Assembly: GCA_031081585.1 (NCBI GenBank)
Contig: JAVHLY010000027.1
Coordinates: 1 to 39,432 of the forward strand
Source: Armatimonadota bacterium
GTDB lineage: Bacteria > Sysuimicrobiota > Sysuimicrobiia > Sysuimicrobiales > Humicultoraceae
Length of the DNA stretch: 39,432 bases
Direction of reading: 5' to 3'
In this document: positions 29,374 through 39,432 of the stretch, one piece after another
Position numbering within the stretch: position 1 is the stretch's first letter
Layout of the letters: each line of letters opens with the position of its first letter
Program-made: the position numbers and the translations under genes
The notes under the pieces: model-generated
Seen by the model: the letters and a program-made list of their open reading frames with translations, nothing else
Databases searched by the model: none
What the model was told of the DNA's origin: nothing

Positions 29374-30039
29374 ATGAAGCGGGTCCTGTACGTCGACGGG
29401 GCCTCGCGTGGCAACCCGGGCCCGGCCGCCATCGGGGTGGTCATCCAGGACGAGCGGGGTCGCACGCTGGAGGAGCTGGGAGAGGCCATCGGCGAGGCCA
29501 CCAACAACGTGGCGGAGTACCGGGCGCTGCTCCGCGGGCTGGACGCGGTGCTGCGGATGGGGGCCGATGAGGTCGAGATCCGCTCCGACAGCCAGTTGCT
29601 GGTCCGGCAACTCACCGGTCGCTACCAGGTGAAGAGTCCCGGTCTGCGGCCGCTGTACGAGCAGGTCCGACTTCGGCTGGGACAATTCCGGCACCGGACC
29701 GTGACGTACGTGCCCCGCGAAGCCAACCGGCGCGCCGATGAGCTGGCAAACCGGGCCCTGGGCCCCGTTGCCCCGCGCGCACTCGACCTGACGGTCCTGC
29801 TGGAAGCGAGTCCCGAGGGCGTGCGGGCCACCGTCCCGGCATTGCCGGGCGTGGCCATCCTCGCGCGTACGCGGGAGGAGGCGCTCCAGCACATCCGAGC
29901 CCTGGCCGAGCAGGCCGTGCGGGACCTCCTGGGCCGGGGAGCGCCGCTCCCGCAGGAGGAACGCATCCGCGTCCTCCTCCCACCCATTGTCCGCCCTGCG
30001 ACGAGCGCGGGCGGGCCTTCGCCACCCGAATCCGGGTGA
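29374..30039 (+). CDS. RNase HI family protein fused to a HicB-like domain
   Basis: 221 residues from the ATG at 29374. Residues 1-130 are an RNase HI domain with the four catalytic acids D8 (YVDGASRGNPG), E48 (NNVAEYRALL), D72 (IRSDSQLLVRQL) and D122 (REANRRADELAN); it should cut RNA in RNA-DNA hybrids. Residues about 137-203 (LDLTVLLEASPEGVRATVPALPGVAILARTREEALQHI split over strand-strand-helix) match the HicB-like antitoxin fold, without a DNA-binding C-terminus or a HicA partner. The fusion is unusual. It sits between the CdsZ-like gene and rnpB. Confidence 0.85.
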   Translation: MKRVLYVDGASRGNPGPAAIGVVIQDERGRTLEELGEAIGEATNNVAEYRALLRGLDAVLRMGADEVEIRSDSQLLVRQLTGRYQVKSPGLRPLYEQVRLRLGQFRHRTVTYVPREANRRADELANRALGPVAPRALDLTVLLEASPEGVRATVPALPGVAILARTREEALQHIRALAEQAVRDLLGRGAPLPQEERIRVLLPPIVRPATSAGGPSPPESG

Positions 30040-30120: not shown

Positions 30121-30498
30121 CGGGAGCAGGCCGGGCAGCCGCGGACCCAGTGGTCCGAGGAAAGTCCGGGCTCCGCAGGGCAGGGTGGTGGGTAACACCC
30201 ACCGGGGGCGACCCCAGGGAGAGTGCCACAGAAACATACCGCCCCGGCCATGAGGGGCGGCCGGTGTGGTCGCCAGGAGCCGGGGTAAGGGTGAAAAGGC
30301 CGGGTAAGAGCCGGCCGGCAGCCTGGTGACGGGCTGGCCAGGCAAACCCCACCCGGAGCAAGGCCAGGTAGGGGGAGATGACGTGGCCCGCCGATCCCCG
30401 GGTAGGCCGCTCGAGGCCGCAGGTGACTGGCGGCCCCAGAGAGATGGCTGCCCCCGGACTTCGGTCCGGGACAGAACCCGGCTTACAGGCCTGCTCCC
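30121..30498 (+). ncRNA. rnpB: RNase P RNA (bacterial type A)
   Basis: The catalytic RNA that matures tRNA 5' ends. The P1 helix pairs GGGAGCAGGCC (30122-30132) with GGCCTGCTCCC (30488-30498), an exact 11-bp match that fixes both ends. The universal core GAGGAAAGTCCGGGCTCC lies at 30157-30174, AGTGCCACAGAAACATACCGCC at about 30221-30242 (split motif), and ACAGAACCCGGCTTA near the 3' end. Length, about 378 nt, is normal. Confidence 0.95.
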
Positions 30499-30659
30499 CC
30501 TCGTCGTTCGCTCCATCCCGGTCCTTGACCGACCGCTCCCCGGGGCGCGTCCAGCCTGTGTCTCCGGACCGTAAGCATCGCTTCGCCCCACTACCCTCCG
30601 GGAATGTGGCCCCGGCTGCCCGCGGGTCGTTGGAACCCCTGCCGTGAGGAGGTGACCGC

Positions 30660-30974
30660 GTGTACGTCGTCCGCTTTGCGTACGATGTCCTCCCCGTCGA
30701 CCGAGACCAGGCCATCGCGCTGATCCGACGGGAAGTGGAGGCGGCCCGGCGACGCGGCCTGACCGCGCGCCTCCTCGTCCCGCTCACTCGCGGACGCGGG
30801 GAGCCAGCCCTGGAGTACGAGGTGGAACTCCCCACCCTCGACCAGCTCGACCAGTACCGCAGCGATCCGCTGGGCTCGGCCGACGCCACCCAGGCCTGGA
30901 TGCGGGAGTTCAGCGAGGTCCTGGTGCAGCCTCCGGGAGTCGAGGTCTTCCGCATCGACACCGGTACGCCATGA
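30660..30974 (+). CDS. Small conserved-looking protein, possible alpha-beta barrel
   Basis: 104 residues from a GTG start; GAGGAGGTGA at 30646-30655 is well placed. The predicted pattern strand-helix-strand-strand-helix-strand (YVVRFAYDVL, RDQAIALIRREVEAARRRG, ARLLVPLTRG, LEYEVELPTLDQLDQYR, VEVFRIDTG) suggests a ferredoxin-like, dimeric alpha-beta barrel protein. I recognise no specific family and assign no reaction. A large hairpin starts four bases after its stop. Confidence 0.65.
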   Translation: MYVVRFAYDVLPVDRDQAIALIRREVEAARRRGLTARLLVPLTRGRGEPALEYEVELPTLDQLDQYRSDPLGSADATQAWMREFSEVLVQPPGVEVFRIDTGTP

Positions 30975-31057: not shown

Positions 31058-31123
31058 GCGCGGTGAACAAGGGAGGTGGAGGTAGAGGAGGGAGCCCAGC
31101 TCCCGAGACCGAGGTCCGACACC

Positions 31124-31393
31124 ATGACGCCACTCGAGTGCCCTCACTGTGGCAGCGACAAAGTCGTCGCCAACGTGACGATCCGATGGAACCAGACCCG
31201 CGAGGCCTTCGTCCCTGACCGAGCGAGCTACTGCACCTCATGCGGCAAGGGCTTCCACCGGCGCCCACCGGGCGAGTTCGGTTTCCGGACCGTCAGGGTC
31301 AAGGGGATGACCCGGGCCCTCTGGCGGCTGCAGCAGAGTGGAGACCTCATCGTCGTCCGGCATCGGAACGGCGTTACCGAAGTCCTCTTCTGA
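31124..31393 (+). CDS. Small zinc-ribbon protein of unknown function
   Basis: 89 residues from the ATG at 31124, with GAGGT at 31111-31115 eight bases upstream. An N-terminal zinc ribbon has paired cysteines CPHCGSDK and CTSCGKGF with 26 residues between the pairs. The rest (FGFRTVRVKGMTRALWRLQQSGDLIVVRHRNGVTEVLF, in two strands around a helix) is not recognised. An in-frame GTG at 31076 would add 16 residues and is less likely. Function is unknown; the ribbon may bind nucleic acid or protein. Confidence 0.65.
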   Translation: MTPLECPHCGSDKVVANVTIRWNQTREAFVPDRASYCTSCGKGFHRRPPGEFGFRTVRVKGMTRALWRLQQSGDLIVVRHRNGVTEVLF

Positions 31394-31574
31394 TCGCGGG
31401 CCTGGCTCCGGCTCTCTCCCGGGGGACGCCTCTCGCCCTGCCGGTGGTGAGTCCCCGGCCCGGTCTCGTGGAGGGGCTGCCTCCCCCTTGCCTGCAGTCT
31501 GCTCCCCTGGAGGAGCTGGCGTCCCCTATCCGGGAAGGTTGGGAAGGAAGCGGATAGAGCAGGGGACGCAATCA

Positions 31575-31668
31575 GGGTACCGTGACGGGCTCCCCCTCTG
31601 AGGCAGGTAGGGTATCGCGACGGGCTCTCCCTTCTGAGACGGGCAGGTCATCATGACGGGTTCCCCCA
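31575..31668 (+). repeat. Three degenerate 35-36-bp tandem repeats at the start of the MFS gene
   Basis: Units containing GACGGGCTCCCCCTCTGAG-like sequence recur with GACGGG at 31584, 31619 and 31655 (periods 35 and 36). The third copy contains the MFS start codon (31653) and its first codons. The 31394-31574 stretch before it has no gene; it holds an inverted repeat CTATCCG/CGGATAG near 31527-31557. Confidence 0.6.
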
Positions 31669-33296
31669 CCTCCGAGTCCCGGGCCTCCTCGACAGAGCGT
31701 CAGGGACCGGGAGCGGCGGCCGAGGCCTCTCCGACCGCCCTGCAGGTTTCCTCCCCGGGGTTTCGCGCGCTGATGCGCAACCGGGCCTACGCGCTCCTGT
31801 GGAGCAGCCAGGCCGTTTCCCAACTCGGTGACCGCTTCCATTGGGTGGCGATCTCGCTCTGGGTCTACACGCAGACTTCGTCGGCCCTCTCGGTGTCCTA
31901 TGCCCTGACGGCGCTGATGCTGGGTCCGGCCGTGCTGGGATTGCCCGCAGGAGCCCTGATCGACCGGTTGGACCGCAAGACGGTTCTGGTGGCTGCCGAC
32001 CTGGTACGCGCCCTGCTCGTCGCCCTGATCCCATGGCTCATGGGAATCGACATCCGCCTCGTCTACCTGGATCTCTTTCTGATTTCGTGTGCTACAACCT
32101 TCTTCCGCCCCGCTGTCTTTGCAGCTATTCCACAAATTACGTCAAGGAGAGAGTATCTTGCTGCAACATCGTTTCTCACCGCCAGCGACACAGGGACCGA
32201 GATAGTGGGTCCAGTAGTTGCCGGGATTATGGTTACTATCGCTGGTTATCATGCGGCACTCTACGTGGACGCAGCGTCCTATTTAATTTCGGCATTATTT
32301 CTAGCCTTTCTCCCTAGAATGCGTGTTGAAATAGCTGAACAGAAAGGGATACACACAATTTGGGTTGATGTTTGGGATGGCTTGAGGTTCATTTGGCACA
32401 AACGATCACAAATAGCCCTAGCGATCTTATTGTTTGGATGGGTACTTTCAGGATTCAACTCGCTTCAAACCCCCCTTGTTAAGGGCGAGCTCAAGCTGTC
32501 GGATACGGATTTCGGTGTCTTCGGCAGCATGATGGGGATAGGTTTTCTTGCAGGATCGCTTCTTAGTGGATGGTACGGGCCCAAATTCCCAAGGGAAGCT
32601 CTCGTGGTAGTTCCCTTTCTCCTTTGGATCGCTTCCACAGCTGCTGCCGGATTTTCCTTCAATGCGGGCATGCTCCACACTGCGTCATTCTGGTATGGCA
32701 TGTACAACATGGTAACTGTTCTCGGCATTGCACAGATTGTGATGGAAGAGACTCCGCAATATTTGCTTGGGAGGGTGTTGGCGTTTCGCCAAGTCATGCT
32801 TGCCGCAATTCGGTTTGTCTCGATGATCGGTCTGGGGTTCCTTGCTGATTACATGGGAGTTCGGTGGGCCATTTTGCTAATGTCACTCGCCGCACTTAGC
32901 TTCGTCGTATTCGCAGCTGTTGCATTCCCTGATGTGATATTAGGTGGATTAGGGTCTAGGTTTCTTTCTAAATTTAATTTGAAGTTTATGTCCTGGGTCG
33001 AGGAAGTCGTATTTGCTACAGATAAATCGTTTCTTCCTGCGTCGCAGCAGCACTTGAATTATGTCAGCCTCGGCTTGTTAGCTCTATGTGCTCTATTGGT
33101 CGTAGTTGGTTCGCCCAGCAGGGCGGGACTGTTTTCAGCGTTGCTATTGAGCTCCCTCGTCGCTTGGAAGGCGCTGAGAAGCGTGTGGTTTAAGCGAGGT
33201 AGCAAGATCTGGGGACGGATGGCCGGGCGGGTAGTCGGCAGGAAGCACGAGGTAGCTGAGAGAATTAGATATGCAACCGGACCGACATCCGATTGA
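31653..33296 (+). CDS. MFS transporter (MFS_3/EntS-like), compositionally mosaic
   Basis: 547 residues with about 12 predicted membrane helices. FRALMRNRAYALLWSSQAVSQLGDRFHWVAI and GALIDRLDRKTVLVAADLVRALLVALI (motif A loop) at the start, FFRPAVFAAIPQITSR and ATSFLTASDTGTEIVGPVVAG after, are typical of drug or siderophore exporters of the MFS_3 type. The substrate is unknown. Codons up to about 32080 are GC-rich like the host; after that the gene is AT-rich, yet the frame and the family features continue without a break. An extra basic C-terminal tail of about 60 residues follows the last helix. It starts within a tandem repeat. Confidence 0.88.
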   Translation: MTGSPTSESRASSTERQGPGAAAEASPTALQVSSPGFRALMRNRAYALLWSSQAVSQLGDRFHWVAISLWVYTQTSSALSVSYALTALMLGPAVLGLPAGALIDRLDRKTVLVAADLVRALLVALIPWLMGIDIRLVYLDLFLISCATTFFRPAVFAAIPQITSRREYLAATSFLTASDTGTEIVGPVVAGIMVTIAGYHAALYVDAASYLISALFLAFLPRMRVEIAEQKGIHTIWVDVWDGLRFIWHKRSQIALAILLFGWVLSGFNSLQTPLVKGELKLSDTDFGVFGSMMGIGFLAGSLLSGWYGPKFPREALVVVPFLLWIASTAAAGFSFNAGMLHTASFWYGMYNMVTVLGIAQIVMEETPQYLLGRVLAFRQVMLAAIRFVSMIGLGFLADYMGVRWAILLMSLAALSFVVFAAVAFPDVILGGLGSRFLSKFNLKFMSWVEEVVFATDKSFLPASQQHLNYVSLGLLALCALLVVVGSPSRAGLFSALLLSSLVAWKALRSVWFKRGSKIWGRMAGRVVGRKHEVAERIRYATGPTSD

Positions 33297-33490
33297 CAAC
33301 AGTCCACGTTTCCCGGCCGAATTCTGGGCGAGTTGCTCAAGCGGTAGCGGGTTCCCGAGCCTGTTCCTACTCGCAGGAGGAGATTACTAACAGGACGGGT
33401 GGCTCGCCTTGACCGTACGGGTCGTTCGCGGGATCTTCTTAGGCGGAGAAAGGGGCCTGTAGTGTCGGTCTGGTTCTTTTTTGGAAGGCG

Positions 33491-34750
33491 ATGAGATCCA
33501 TTTGCGATCGGCCAATTTCCGATAGGCTTCAACTTCTCGTACTGTCCACTATAGTTACCTGGGTGGCCGTTGTCATCGCTTCACTCCCTTCTCTCTCAGG
33601 GGTAGGGCTGGGAGAGGTTCTGATCGCAACTCTGGTAATTATTGCCTCATCGATTATAGTTGAAGATCCGTCCGGTGGTACGATCAGCTTCGCCTTGATT
33701 CTCCTTTTTGCCACCATGTACCTATTTCCTCCCGAAATAGGTCTATACATTGGGGGCTTGAGTTATGGCATCGGCAACGCACTGGGCAGAGGATGGGTGC
33801 CTTGGCGGTCAGCGTTTAACATCGGCCAGATGGGCATAAGTGTCGGGATCGGCAGTGCGGTTTTCCACTTAGTCTCCCAGGGCTTAGATCCCAACCAGCC
33901 CATACGCCTCATGGCGGGCGCTCTGACGGGTGCCTTCTCTTTTCACATTGTCAATAACTTTTATGTTGGTTTAGCTCTCAGCCTCATTGGCGGCCTTCCC
34001 TTTTTTAGGACGTGGGTGGCCTTCGGACGAGATCTCCTGGTCAGCAATTTGATGAGTGTTTTTACTGGTCTTCTCTTTGCCCTTTCTTATAGGTACGTTC
34101 ATGCTCTAAGTCTCTTGGCGTTTATCCCATTACTTCCTTTTCAGCGTTTAGCCATGCAACTCTATCTCAAGCGGCGGAGTGTGTATCTCCGTATCGTGGA
34201 GAGGGTAATGCTAGCAGGCGAGATGACTCAACCGAAGACGAGAGGACACGCTCGAAGAGTAGCCGATCTCTCTGTCGCGATTGGGCAACAGCTAGGCTTG
34301 GGCGGCAGAGAACTGGAAACTCTAGAGTATGCCGCTTTGTTGCATGATGTCGGTCTGATCGCATTCGAGGCTGAGCTTGCGAATCCGACAGCAGATTTAC
34401 CGGTAGATTGGATATCCGTTCACTCTAAATTGGGAGCTGACATCGCCCGAGAACTCGGGAATCCTGAAATCTGTTCGGCGATACTACACCACCACGTAGA
34501 CATGAGCTTAAGCGGTGGATTGAGGATACCCCTGATGGCTAAGATCCTTGCAGTCGCAGAGGAAGTGGATAGTGCACTAAACGGTCTTCATCCCTACTTG
34601 AAGCCAAATACCTTGGACGAGGTCGTCCAAAGGCTGACTAATAGCGAGCGTAGTCGCTTTGATTCTGAGGTTGTGGCTGCATTCCTAACTCTGGCTTCAA
34701 GCCTCTCCATGCAGTTGGCTCCAAAACCGAGCAATGCCACCTCTACGTGA
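33491..34750 (+). CDS. Membrane protein with divergent HD domain, GYP motif lost
   Basis: 419 residues. Residues 1-235 hold about six to seven hydrophobic helices of a MASE-like sensor (VTWVAVVIASLPSLSG, LATLVIIASSIIV, ISFALILLFATMYLF). A cytosolic HD domain follows: H253 in HARRVADLS, H285-D286 in ALLHDVGLI and HHHVD near 330. Where HD-GYP enzymes have HExxDGxGYP, this reads HHHVDMSLSGGLRIPL, so c-di-GMP cleavage is doubtful, although the metal-binding His and Asp residues partly remain. Its neighbour at 34854 has the same layout with an intact motif, which suggests an enzyme and regulator pair. The composition is AT-richer than in the first 31 kb. Confidence 0.8.
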   Translation: MRSICDRPISDRLQLLVLSTIVTWVAVVIASLPSLSGVGLGEVLIATLVIIASSIIVEDPSGGTISFALILLFATMYLFPPEIGLYIGGLSYGIGNALGRGWVPWRSAFNIGQMGISVGIGSAVFHLVSQGLDPNQPIRLMAGALTGAFSFHIVNNFYVGLALSLIGGLPFFRTWVAFGRDLLVSNLMSVFTGLLFALSYRYVHALSLLAFIPLLPFQRLAMQLYLKRRSVYLRIVERVMLAGEMTQPKTRGHARRVADLSVAIGQQLGLGGRELETLEYAALLHDVGLIAFEAELANPTADLPVDWISVHSKLGADIARELGNPEICSAILHHHVDMSLSGGLRIPLMAKILAVAEEVDSALNGLHPYLKPNTLDEVVQRLTNSERSRFDSEVVAAFLTLASSLSMQLAPKPSNATST

Positions 34751-34853
34751 AATGAGGTGGGAGGGAAGCGATCAATCTACGCTTTGTAAATCAGGCAGCT
34801 TTAAGAGAGTCTTGGCTCGGCGAGGCTGATCGTCGGAGTTCCTGGGTGATCCC

Positions 34854-35996
34854 TTGACTTTCTATCTACCTCTACTACTGCTCATCGGCATTGCGGGTAT
34901 CTTCTCTGGCTGGATTGAATTCCGATTCGAGGATTTCGGGTTGCTACCTCTATCGCTGGCTTCCGCTGTTGTGCTTGCGCTTCTAGTTATCATGGGAACA
35001 GGAATCGCATTAGCGACTGGAATCGTTGCCTCTGTTCTGGGACAGGCCCTCCTCGGAAATGCCATTAAAGCAAACTTGGCCGGAGAAGCCGCAAGATCTA
35101 TGCTGCTTCTTAGCATCCCTCTTGGGGTGACGACTCTTTTGCTGGACAGGGCTTCCCTGTCCGGTACTTCGTCTTACATCGTCCTGCTCACTTGCGGAAT
35201 TTTTCTCATCATTGATGCGGTGCTGCGCGTCTTTAGCCTAATCTCGAGCGAACGAATCGGACTCTCCAGGGCAGTGCCACTTGTATTTACGACACTCTAC
35301 CCCTACTATCTTCTTACCCCTCCCCTGGTTCTCCTGCTGGCCATAAGTCGCGAGGTGTTCGGGCTCCTGGGTCTTGTGGTTGGGATAGCGGTTGTGGCCG
35401 AGCTCTGCTATCCATGGAAACTTCTCAACGAGCAGAGTGTACTGCTATTTCGAAGCTTGAAGATGATCTCCCAGGCGGTAGATTTGAAAGATCCTTACAC
35501 TTCGAACCACTCAAGAAGGGTGGCTGATTTAGCTGTCAAGGTTGCAAGGAGAATGGGCTTGCCCGAGTCCGAGATTCCCACGATCCGTACAGCTGCGCTT
35601 ATGCATGATATCGGGAAAATTGGGATTCCTGTTGACATCATCAGGAAACCTCAGCGACTTACCTCACAGGAGATGACCGTCGTGCGGAGGCATCCTATTG
35701 CGGGGGCTGAGTTGATCCAGAGTCTTGATGAGAAGGCTGCTGAGATAGTAAAGCACAGCCATGAGCACTTTGACGGCACAGGGTATCCTGCGGGCCTTCG
35801 GGGAAGATCCATCCCGACAGGCTCGCGAATCATCCTCGTGGTCGATGCATTTGACGCACTGACGACCGATAGGCCTTATCGGCAAGGGAGATCACATTTT
35901 GAGGCCTTAGAGGTTATCAAACAGCATTCAGGAACTCAGTTCGACCCTGAGATCGTGGCTGCTCTTGAATCGCTAGTTGGACAGGAGGTGGTTTGA
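34854..35996 (+). CDS. Membrane HD-GYP protein, probable cyclic-di-GMP phosphodiesterase
   Basis: 380 residues from a probable TTG start; no ATG is available before the first membrane helix and the ribosome binding site is weak. Residues 1-200 hold about six hydrophobic helices. The HD-GYP domain is canonical: NHSRRVADLAVKVARRMG, H251-D252 in LMHDIGKIGIP, HEHFDGTGYP at 303-312 and VDAFDALTTDRPYR. Such enzymes hydrolyse c-di-GMP to GMP or pGpG. It follows the divergent HD gene by 103 bases and would counter the GGDEF protein at 23629. Confidence 0.87.
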   Translation: MTFYLPLLLLIGIAGIFSGWIEFRFEDFGLLPLSLASAVVLALLVIMGTGIALATGIVASVLGQALLGNAIKANLAGEAARSMLLLSIPLGVTTLLLDRASLSGTSSYIVLLTCGIFLIIDAVLRVFSLISSERIGLSRAVPLVFTTLYPYYLLTPPLVLLLAISREVFGLLGLVVGIAVVAELCYPWKLLNEQSVLLFRSLKMISQAVDLKDPYTSNHSRRVADLAVKVARRMGLPESEIPTIRTAALMHDIGKIGIPVDIIRKPQRLTSQEMTVVRRHPIAGAELIQSLDEKAAEIVKHSHEHFDGTGYPAGLRGRSIPTGSRIILVVDAFDALTTDRPYRQGRSHFEALEVIKQHSGTQFDPEIVAALESLVGQEVV

Positions 35997-36163
35997 AGGA
36001 AGCTTAACAGAAAGGGTCGGCGTCGCCCTACTTGCGCGAAGACCTTCACTAACTCCCACTGACTCGTTCCCCTGCGGCGGGCGCATAGAGAAAGGCCTGG
36101 TTCTAGTTTCCTGGAAGTGTAGTTGCATGGTTTAGGGTCAAAATTGGTTGGCGAGGTTAGGGC

Positions 36164-37981
36164 ATGACGGTCAATATCTATCTTCTCGGTGAGATGAGAA
36201 TTGAATTTTCAGGCCACCCACTGCGTCTTCCAACCAAGGGTGTTGAACTCGCGGCTTTCCTTGCACTCCAGCCGAACGCCAGATCATCGCGGAGAAGCGC
36301 TGCCTTGGCGCTTTGGCCTGATCGGGAAGGGGCGCGAGCGCTCTCCAACCTAAGCACGCTGCTCTGGCGAATAAAAGCGCTGATGGATACTATTGGGACT
36401 AAATTCCTGTCGTGGGATGCGAGCCATCTGTGGCTGGAAAGGAAGACTATCTGGGTGGATTGCTGGGAACTGGAAAGGATCAGCAAAACATTAGTCGAGG
36501 GTACAGATCCGACTCCACTTCTTGATAGGTTACTGAACTCGTATCAGGGTGAGCTAGGTGGACACGATATTCCTTTGGATTGGATCACTGAGTTCCGCGA
36601 ATACTTCCGTGTCCTCTATTTAGAGACCCTTGCTCGCGCTGGAAGAATTCTTCAGTTCGGGGGGAATATTGGAAGTTCCCGAAGAGTCTTTGAGAAGATC
36701 TTCCAGATCGATCCTGCTAACGAAGCAGCAGCGCAAGAACTAATGAAAATTTACGCTCGCGATGGAAACGGCGACCGGGTGAATTACGTATATTCCACTT
36801 TGATTTCCCACCTTCGACGTGACTTAGGAGTGGAGCCGACGCAGGAAACTGCGGGGCTATATCGGGAGATACGAGGTCGAATGAACACGCCACGACTAGT
36901 TGATACGGGAATTCTACGCTCCTTCCCATCGTGGTTTATGGTAAGAAGCGAATGTGATCCCTTGCGGTCAATTTTCTTAGTATCTCAAACAAATTTAACC
37001 CGTGCAATAGGCATCCGTGGCGATTGGGGCTTAGGTAAGACAACCCTGTTAAGGAGACTCCTTGTGGAGCGCGCCCGATGGGGATCGTCTCACTTGATAC
37101 GATTGCCTGAGCTGGCAGAAGAAGTTGAATCCTACCAGTGTCTTCACCGTCTTTCACTGAGCCTGGCTGACCGAAGTGGAGACGCACCGTTACCTGATCG
37201 TGATAGGGATTTGCTATCTATAGAGAGGAACATGATGAGCTGGCTTCGTTCGGTGATTCGTCGGGAGGCCACGAAGGGGACCTCCTTGATCATGTTCGAT
37301 AATATCCAATCCGCGGATATTTATAGTTTAAGGATCATCCGACAGCTGCGGAAGGAATTGGATGGCCATCCCATTATATTTGTTCTCACTTGGAGTGAAG
37401 AGGATTGCTCAAAGGATGTACTTACATTTCTTGGAGAACAAAAATTTTTCGACGAGATTATTTCCCTCCGACCTTTTAGTCCTCCTGAAGTGAGCGAGCT
37501 GTTGGGATCTTGGGGTTTAGAGCGAATGGGTTCGCACCTCGTTGGTAGATTAACTGAAATCACGGGTGGAAATCCTCGTTTGCTGGAAACTGCAACCCAA
37601 CAATTGAGTGGATTACGACTTGAACTGTTTAGGCGTACTTGGGAATCAGGACTAATAAGGGTATTGCAGGAGATACACGGGCGCTCCTACATCGACCGAA
37701 TTGCTAGGAGGCTTGCCCTCCTTTCTAGAGAAAGCATGCACTCTTCTAGAGGCGGCTTGCGTTCTCGGACACAGGGAGAGTCTTGGATTGCTTGTAGAAG
37801 TTTCCCGACTCCCCCGCCGATCCGTGCTGCGCTTACTCGACCAGTTGTCCCAACGTGGACTTATAGGGGTGGAAGGCACGGATTATTATTTTCCCAGCCT
37901 CTTCTTGCGACAGGCTATCTTGCGATGGATTCCGGCGGATTCAAGGGTCAACTGGCATCGGCGCACTATACCTTTGGTTAG
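36164..37981 (+). CDS. SARP-like (BTAD) AAA regulator, N-terminal part, frameshifted
   Basis: 605 residues as read. Residues 1-95 form a winged-helix DNA-binding domain (YLLGEMRIEFSGHPLRLPTKGVELAAFLAL, ALWPDREGARALSNLSTLLWRIK); 95-240 are a bacterial transcriptional activation domain (YQGELGGHDIPLDWITEFREYF, DLGVEPTQETAGLYREI); 265-520 are an ATPase with Walker A GDWGLGKT at 286-293 and Walker B LIMFD at 375-379. From about residue 525 the sequence no longer resembles the family, because the true frame continues in another phase. Such regulators are ATP-controlled activators. A one-base insertion near 37739 explains the break. Confidence 0.85.
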   Translation: MTVNIYLLGEMRIEFSGHPLRLPTKGVELAAFLALQPNARSSRRSAALALWPDREGARALSNLSTLLWRIKALMDTIGTKFLSWDASHLWLERKTIWVDCWELERISKTLVEGTDPTPLLDRLLNSYQGELGGHDIPLDWITEFREYFRVLYLETLARAGRILQFGGNIGSSRRVFEKIFQIDPANEAAAQELMKIYARDGNGDRVNYVYSTLISHLRRDLGVEPTQETAGLYREIRGRMNTPRLVDTGILRSFPSWFMVRSECDPLRSIFLVSQTNLTRAIGIRGDWGLGKTTLLRRLLVERARWGSSHLIRLPELAEEVESYQCLHRLSLSLADRSGDAPLPDRDRDLLSIERNMMSWLRSVIRREATKGTSLIMFDNIQSADIYSLRIIRQLRKELDGHPIIFVLTWSEEDCSKDVLTFLGEQKFFDEIISLRPFSPPEVSELLGSWGLERMGSHLVGRLTEITGGNPRLLETATQQLSGLRLELFRRTWESGLIRVLQEIHGRSYIDRIARRLALLSRESMHSSRGGLRSRTQGESWIACRSFPTPPPIRAALTRPVVPTWTYRGGRHGLLFSQPLLATGYLAMDSGGFKGQLASAHYTFG

Positions 37982-39432
37982 GGCTCGACCGGATGCTGCT
38001 GCGAAGGCCCTGGCTTGGCATCTTGAGGGAGCCGAGCTCCCAATGGAGGCAGGTACTCAATGGGAAGCTATCGGGGATCGGGCTGCCTCTGGTGGCCAGC
38101 AGCGAGAGGCAGAGGCGGCCTACACGAAGGCACTCGCCTTGGTAAGTACGGCCAAACCATCTCATCTCAGAGTGATTCGCTTGCTACGGAAGCGGGCGGC
38201 GGCTAGACAAGCGCTTGGGAGGCTTGAAGAGGCGGAGGCTGATTTGGACCGAGCGATTCTTTTATCTGGCGAGGTTCGAAATGCAAAGGAGAGATTTGAG
38301 GGCGAGCTGCAGCGGGCATGGGTCTATCTTTGGCAGGGTAAGTTTGCGGAGACTCGCAGATCAACTACTCGTCTCATGAGACTCACAGATGTGATGAGGG
38401 ATCAGCGGCAGCGCACAAGAATAGGAGAACTGACGTACTATCTCTTATACCGGAAGGGACAACTCTTTCAAGCGCGAAATGGTTTGCGAAGACTGGCGGA
38501 GGAGATTAACCCCAGATCCGACGTTGCCACCCTAGAGCGTCTCTGGACGAGCATAGGGCGTGTGGAGTTGGCGCTAGGACTTAACAAAGAAGCGCTGAGA
38601 AGCCTTGAGCGTGCTGAGAGATGGGACAGTGGGCAGGCTTATCAGCGCGGACTCCGTCACTTGATTAGAGGAGTCATACATTACGCTGAAGGATTTGCCC
38701 AAGAAGCCAAAATTCAACTTGGCTTGGCTACTCAAACATTTTGCCAGATGGGTAACCTTCCTGCCGAAGCTTTGGCAAGGGCCCTCTTGGCTAGCGCGTG
38801 CGCAATGGCTGGTGATTTACGAGAGGCCTTGAAGCAGGCTTGCAGGGGCCTTCCGTTTATGGCCGGCAAGGGAGATAAAAGATGGACTTTGGTGGTTACG
38901 ACTAATCTAGTCAGTACACTTCTATATGCCTTACCAAACTTCAGACTCGCTAGATCGATGTTGATGAAAGCCTTGGCTGTACCGGCTGCGGTGGAAGCGC
39001 ATGGGAACGTCTATTCTTTGTTAATCAGACTCGCACTTGAGCAAGGAAGAGTTGAGTTTGCTTTGCAACTAGCATCGGAAGATCATCTTACGGGTGCCTT
39101 GTACTCCCGAGACCCCACTCATAGGGCTTTTCGAATGCTCGCCCTTGGCAAGGTGTGCTTGGCTACTTCGGCGGAATCCCATGCGGTTGAGTACCTCAGG
39201 AAAGCGATTCGGTTGTTTAAGCGAACAGGCGACCATTATGGATATGTAGATGCTCTGACTTCCTTAGCCCTCGCCTTTAGATCAGAGGACCGGAGCAAAG
39301 CGCTTAAAGCCTCTAATGAGGCCATCGCTTTGTTAGAGGCGAAGGGCCTGGCTCATCCTCGTCCGCAGGAGGCGTACTGGAACCACTACCAGATCCTTGG
39401 CGACCCGCAGAACCCCGAGGCTCAGCACGCTC
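37740..39432 (+). CDS. C-terminal TPR part of the same SARP-like regulator, cut by the window end
   Basis: The frame +1 relative to the gene at 36164 is open from 37740 to the last base with no stop. It begins TLLEAACVLGHRESLGLLVE, exactly what should follow the ATPase in this family, then has helical TPR-like repeats (EAEAAYTKALALV, RLEEAEADLDRAILL, EALRSLERAERW, HAVEYLRKAIRLF, KALKASNEAIALLEAKG). TPRs usually bind a ligand or partner. With the piece before it the full protein would be over 1,080 residues. The last 70 bases return to about 65 % GC. Confidence 0.8.

Follow-up and report, generated by a model that had tools for sequence, protein, structure and literature searches.

The abrupt fall in GC content inside the transporter gene described here is, on balance, probably a homologous-recombination boundary at the edge of a 7.3-kb AT-rich segment, running from about 32,065 to 39,365 with both ends inside genes. 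This segment would be the exchanged allelic core of a conserved chromosomal cluster whose homogenised ends are GC-rich. The window, i.e. the whole stretch of DNA that was analysed, is the entire contig C27 (39,432 bp) of genome G000, a 2.88-Mb draft in 66 contigs that is 96% complete. Our comparison set for the phylum consisted of 43 Sysuimicrobiota genomes, all in one order; this phylum, equated with CSP1-3, comprises one class and one order (PMC11604079). A species tree built from five proteins served as the reference for kinship and species distance.

The GC fall within the transporter gene was confirmed as genuine. The first-pass annotation had reported a drop from 41/60 to 22/60 with the change near 32080, and the recomputed 60-bp values are 0.683 at 31921-31980 and 0.367 at 32281-32340. 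A one-change-point likelihood scan placed a GC3 step from 0.83 to 0.51 at codon 139 (support for codons 135-145, window 32058-32088), with a 2lnLR of 49.4 that was reached in 0 of 2000 codon shuffles (shuffle maximum 21.6). Over all bases, the step lies at 32025 (32012-32076), and among the host genes tested upstream in the window, none gave a GC3 step with a 2lnLR above 9. The AT-rich tract has a GC content of about 51%, and the host background, taken from 530 sampled 1-kb windows of G000, has a mean of 73.6% (SD 2.9%, two windows below 60%). Intergenic DNA is AT-rich as well (0.53-0.59 in the tract versus 0.69-0.73 upstream), so the step concerns the DNA itself, beyond codon choice alone. 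The frame had been described as intact, and all 547 codons of the gene (31653-33296) are indeed open. Its product is a predicted exporter of the major facilitator superfamily (MFS), with a Pfam MFS_1 match over residues 49-389 (E 2e-32) that scores 112.9 bits against a gathering cut-off of 33.4. TIGR00900 is the top NCBIfam subfamily, yet it stays under its own cut-off, and a solved-structure search with the MFS profile returned a weak match to GlcP and nothing else. Three imperfect direct repeats of 33 nt, spaced 35-36 nt apart (31565-31668), span the annotated MFS start.

Table 1. Features of the window around the AT-rich segment (positions in the window).
Feature	Position	Strand	Evidence
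rnh, RNase H-like, GC-rich upstream flank	29374..30039	+	RVT_3 E 3e-25; syntenic upstream of the cluster in relatives
rnpB, RNase P RNA class A, flank	30123..30501	+	Rfam RF00010, 268 bits
Small zinc-ribbon (Lar-like) gene, last before the cluster	31076..31393	+	GC3 0.82; weak Lar_restr_allev match, below cut-off
MFS gene, GC-rich N-terminal part (codons 1-138)	31653..32065	+	GC3 0.83, ordinary divergence
Upstream boundary of composition and divergence	32058..32088		GC3 change point, codons 135-145
MFS gene, AT-rich C-terminal part	32066..33296	+	GC3 ~0.5; divergence ratio 4.5 vs 2.9
HD1, membrane protein, degenerate HD domain	33491..34750	+	Pfam HD E 3e-14, MASE9 E 4e-6
HDGYP2, membrane protein, canonical HD-GYP domain	34854..35996	+	Pfam HD_5 E 1e-40; HD and HExFDGTGYPAGL motifs
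BTAD-AAA-TPR regulator, 5' half	36164..37750	+	BTAD E 1e-9; frame matches
BTAD-AAA-TPR regulator, 3' half, runs on into C33	37701..39432	+	Frame matches, C33 overlap
Exact 99-nt overlap with the start of C33, same genome	39334..39432		Sequence match; held in the bin by C27 and C33 only
Downstream composition boundary	39360..39375		Change point 39363, 2lnLR 79

The downstream end of the low tract is as sharp as its start. Its course to nearly the end of the window, already remarked upon in the first-pass annotation, is closed by a reverse GC3 step from 0.52 to 0.85 inside the BTAD/TPR regulator gene, which was read across the contig overlap (Table 1). The final 99 nt of the window recur at the start of contig C33 (72% GC), which keeps the regulator gene in frame and carries mraZ near its start, as is seen in other family members. 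An assembly join of two genomes into one chimeric contig, which had been proposed as one of three causes, is conceivable in a draft of 66 contigs, and other MAGs have contig breaks close to the same codon. We nevertheless consider it extremely unlikely. Contigs overlap by 99 nt at another place in this assembly, so that an erroneous join would require a long word shared across a junction of 68% and 50% GC; the far end of the segment moreover joins C33 with its mraZ gene. Comparable steps occur in independent assemblies. The neighbours of the step are likewise the same genes in independently assembled genomes, one of them in only four contigs, and the homology runs on unbroken across the junction. 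No contig of the G000 bin besides C27 and C33 holds the 99-nt end word, so alternative alleles of the G000 population are not seen there.

The genes of the segment suggest a role in regulated export. HDGYP2 is a predicted c-di-GMP phosphodiesterase, its translation containing both HDIGKIG and HEHFDGTGYPAGL, while HD1 has HHHVDMSLSGGLR at the expected HHExxDGxGYPxGL site and thus lacks the GYP motif. The regulator is a single protein of ~1190-1280 aa in those relatives that have the complete gene; in G000 it is split by a one-base frame change within 37576-37750, which could represent inactivation or relaxed selection, or else a sequence error. Judging from the domains, the cluster likely provides second-messenger-controlled export, in which the MFS transporter would be governed by a signalling module of c-di-GMP and BTAD/TPR proteins. 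On the upstream side, the zinc-ribbon gene adjoins the MFS gene also in G011, G014, G020, G035 and L156, and an ORF of 104 aa (30660-30974) between rnpB and the zinc-ribbon gene has no Pfam or NCBIfam match.

The arrangement MFS-HD-HDGYP-BTAD/TPR was found in relatives of several families, usually in this order and downstream of rnh. On the far side, the window's own family has mraZ, which lies nearby in G002, G004, G006 and G007. In each of the nine genomes compared, the cluster has a lower GC than its host (cluster/host in %: 52/74, 57/69, 57/72, 61/72, 64/67, 55/70, 54/69, 54/63 and 55/64), the host value being drawn in several of them from a few kilobases of flank. In G004, the module from HD to TPR is inverted relative to the MFS gene and AT-rich nonetheless, and low GC therefore travels with the genes. 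The same genome has another 4-kb tract (L176, 6000-10000) of 52-56% GC in a background of 72%, with an ORF resembling a DNA methyltransferase. The start of contig C7 of G000 (L187, 1-1700; ~57% GC) holds an open frame of 286 codons and is unrelated to the cluster according to tblastn with the regulator and mraZ. Contigs G001:C20, G007:C78, G029:C108, G035:C19 and G009:C327 stop within ~1.5 kb of the locus, beside rnh or mraZ; where the cluster seems absent from a MAG, a gap in assembly or binning may be the reason.

This phylum-wide distribution bears on the idea that an AT-rich genomic island was acquired recently from a distant donor and joined in frame with the MFS gene already present, a more specific form of another cause offered in the first-pass annotation. 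The composition of the segment is atypical, with GC and dinucleotide bias unlike those of the host (delta* 148 versus at most 93 in host fragments), as would be expected of an island. However, the cluster is orthologous and syntenic across the phylum, the gene order of relatives crosses the step, and the trees keep HD1 and the two MFS parts in the family of the window, the C-terminal MFS part and HD1 beside G007, so that phylogenetic incongruence is not seen. Neither an integrase nor a transposase was found among the ORFs of the segment, nor a tRNA within it, and the search for edge repeats found none at codon 139. We therefore regard an island as very unlikely, and a distant donor is not supported by the sequences. 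Scans of genome and viral contigs returned no AT-rich donor genome and no donor from another phylum. The single clear outsider (Acidobacteriaceae) was rejected as a candidate foreign donor, its identity being 24%. The MAG L156 (MGOM01000094.1), labelled as Chloroflexi, was likewise rejected, since it groups with G020 inside the Sysuimicrobiota family f2; it shows the order Lar-MFS-HD-HDGYP with a GC course of 68-54-70, and its label is probably wrong. The xenogeneic silencers Lsr2 and H-NS had no match in four genomes.

The kinship of the segment was followed gene by gene. In the species tree, the topology (G000,(G007,G001)) is fully supported. Separate phylogenies of the two parts of the MFS gene, as the first-pass annotation had proposed, place the N-terminal part within family f1 (84/91) and the C-terminal part within f1 (91/97), beside G007 (91/94). 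An early idea from raw identities, that the C-terminal part lies outside the family, was ruled out by this tree. HD1 pairs G000 with G007 (100/98); for HDGYP2 the same pair is weak (76/79), and the f1 clade is not rejected (p-AU 0.124). Since the branches of G000 are long, its placement in these trees carries some risk. The segment trees follow the species tree, and any exchange would therefore have been with close kin, or else the long branch reflects acceleration in place. It had also been suggested that a shared closest relative and a shared step would tell against a junction within the gene. Both halves do belong to the same family, but the steps of the relatives fall at other codons, and the assembly of the nearest relative, G007, is without the N-terminal part.

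Divergence changes together with composition, the excess beginning at the upstream GC edge. Per unit of species distance, the N-terminal MFS part has an ordinary divergence (2.0 for G000 versus 1.8 for other pairs), and the ratio is raised in the C-terminal MFS part (4.5 versus 2.9), HD1 (4.5 versus 2.5) and HDGYP2 (5.0 versus 3.0), an excess of 1.6-1.8 times. Past the second edge, the identity between G000 and G007 rises from ~30% to 49%, and to ~65% in the final 80 residues. G017 and G035 have a similarly low GC with divergence in the normal range, and AT-richness alone is thus not the cause of the excess.

Steps within genes were also found in relatives. In G006, GC3 changes at MFS codon 216 (2lnLR 50) and at regulator residue 921 (2lnLR 98); further steps lie at MFS codon 145 and HD1 209 of G014b, at HD1 244 of G015 and at regulator 1093 of G020. 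Two MFS alleles coexist in the MAG G014. Across codons 20-100 they match at 98-100%, but their identity is ~65% from codon 140, where third positions agree at ~35%; it returns to 85-95% from about codon 400 and to 90-95% beyond codon 420. Between these alleles, third-position identity correlates with GC3 (rho 0.81, although adjacent bins are not independent), and in congeneric genomes a link of identity and GC was present in one of three pairs. Allelic exchange implies conserved flanks with breakpoints near or inside the end genes, and this is what synteny and the in-gene steps show; differing core alleles with identical flanks, expected among strains of one species, were seen only in the MFS gene of one mixed MAG, G014. 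Some contigs also end near the edges: that of G011 stops at MFS codon 147, that of G007 opens at codon 143, and the window stops at the second edge. We infer that these ends would be points where the assembly graph branches on differing alleles.

Each edge is sharp, falls inside a gene whose homology continues across it and coincides with a change in divergence, and relatives keep their gene order across both; we interpret the two as likely boundaries of homologous recombination. At its conserved ends, the cluster may recombine with that of relatives and so be kept homogeneous and GC-rich, and the core between the edges would be swapped as one block of deeply diverged alleles, with little recombination inside it, and remain AT-rich. 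The partner in such an exchange would be an orthologous allele of the cluster from the same phylum. The lack of an AT-rich donor genome in the scans, the agreement of the segment trees with the species tree, the lack of a further contig with the 99-nt end word and the identity-GC link in only one of three congeneric pairs weigh against this reading. Among the three causes first proposed, homologous recombination inside the gene is thus the best supported; the distant AT-rich transporter named as the partner has given way to a same-phylum orthologous allele, and the event would take in several genes over 7.3 kb and have a second breakpoint.

The main rival is in-situ divergence, in which a vertically inherited, fast-evolving core drifted towards AT, through lack of recombination or through selection for AT, between ends that stayed GC-rich, so that the step marks the limit of a GC-raising process. 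We rate this as possible but rather doubtful. It agrees with gene trees that are congruent with the species tree and have long G000 branches, with the low cluster GC in every genome compared, the inverted G004 copy included, and with the split regulator gene, whose frame change, if due to relaxed selection, could count against exchange. Drift alone predicts a gradient, however, whereas the steps are resolved to ~10 codons at both ends; G017 and G035 are equally AT-rich without excess divergence, and the G014 allele pair is a direct mosaic.

The low GC is probably not a relic of a single ancient transfer, since it persists across family-level divergence, at which synonymous sites should be saturated; something would appear to renew or maintain it. 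A candidate is weaker recombination, and hence less GC-biased conversion, in the diverged core, for which the support outside G014 is mixed. A further reading that we hold to be unlikely is that the cluster was kept vertically throughout the phylum and escapes the GC-raising process of hosts with 63-74% GC, its core alleles having diverged too far for recombination; the in-gene steps would then be footprints where recombination and GC-raising conversion stop.

A 20-point GC step within a gene is usually taken as a foreign island or a misassembly, both of which are opposed here by synteny and trees. Edges of composition and divergence are paired at a scale of ~10 codons in several lineages, and the locus could serve as a test of whether GC-rich bacterial genomes are held at high GC by recombination. 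Composition-based binning may lose such clusters; a contig of G001 opens just upstream of mraZ, at the expected site of the cluster.

The segment resembles a horizontally acquired genomic island in its sharply bounded low GC and atypical dinucleotide bias, but differs in its phylum-wide orthology and synteny, its trees congruent with the species tree and its lack of mobility genes. Recombination is associated with higher GC in bacteria (PMC4450053), and the apparently recombining parts are likewise higher in GC3 here, within one gene (in G014, and by inference in G000). The published effect of GC-biased gene conversion is a gene-level average within species, whereas here 15-30 GC3 points separate the two sides of a sharp intragenic edge and its causal role is that of a candidate. 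The closest parallel may be the pneumococcal capsule (cps) locus (PMC5850285, PMC4380333). That locus encodes polysaccharide synthesis rather than an exporter with HD-GYP/BTAD signalling proteins, and the exchange posited here is drawn from species-level genomes and one mixed MAG instead of isolates. Common to both is a diverse block replaced via homologous recombination between conserved neighbours, with some breakpoints within the first genes and an elevated substitution rate.
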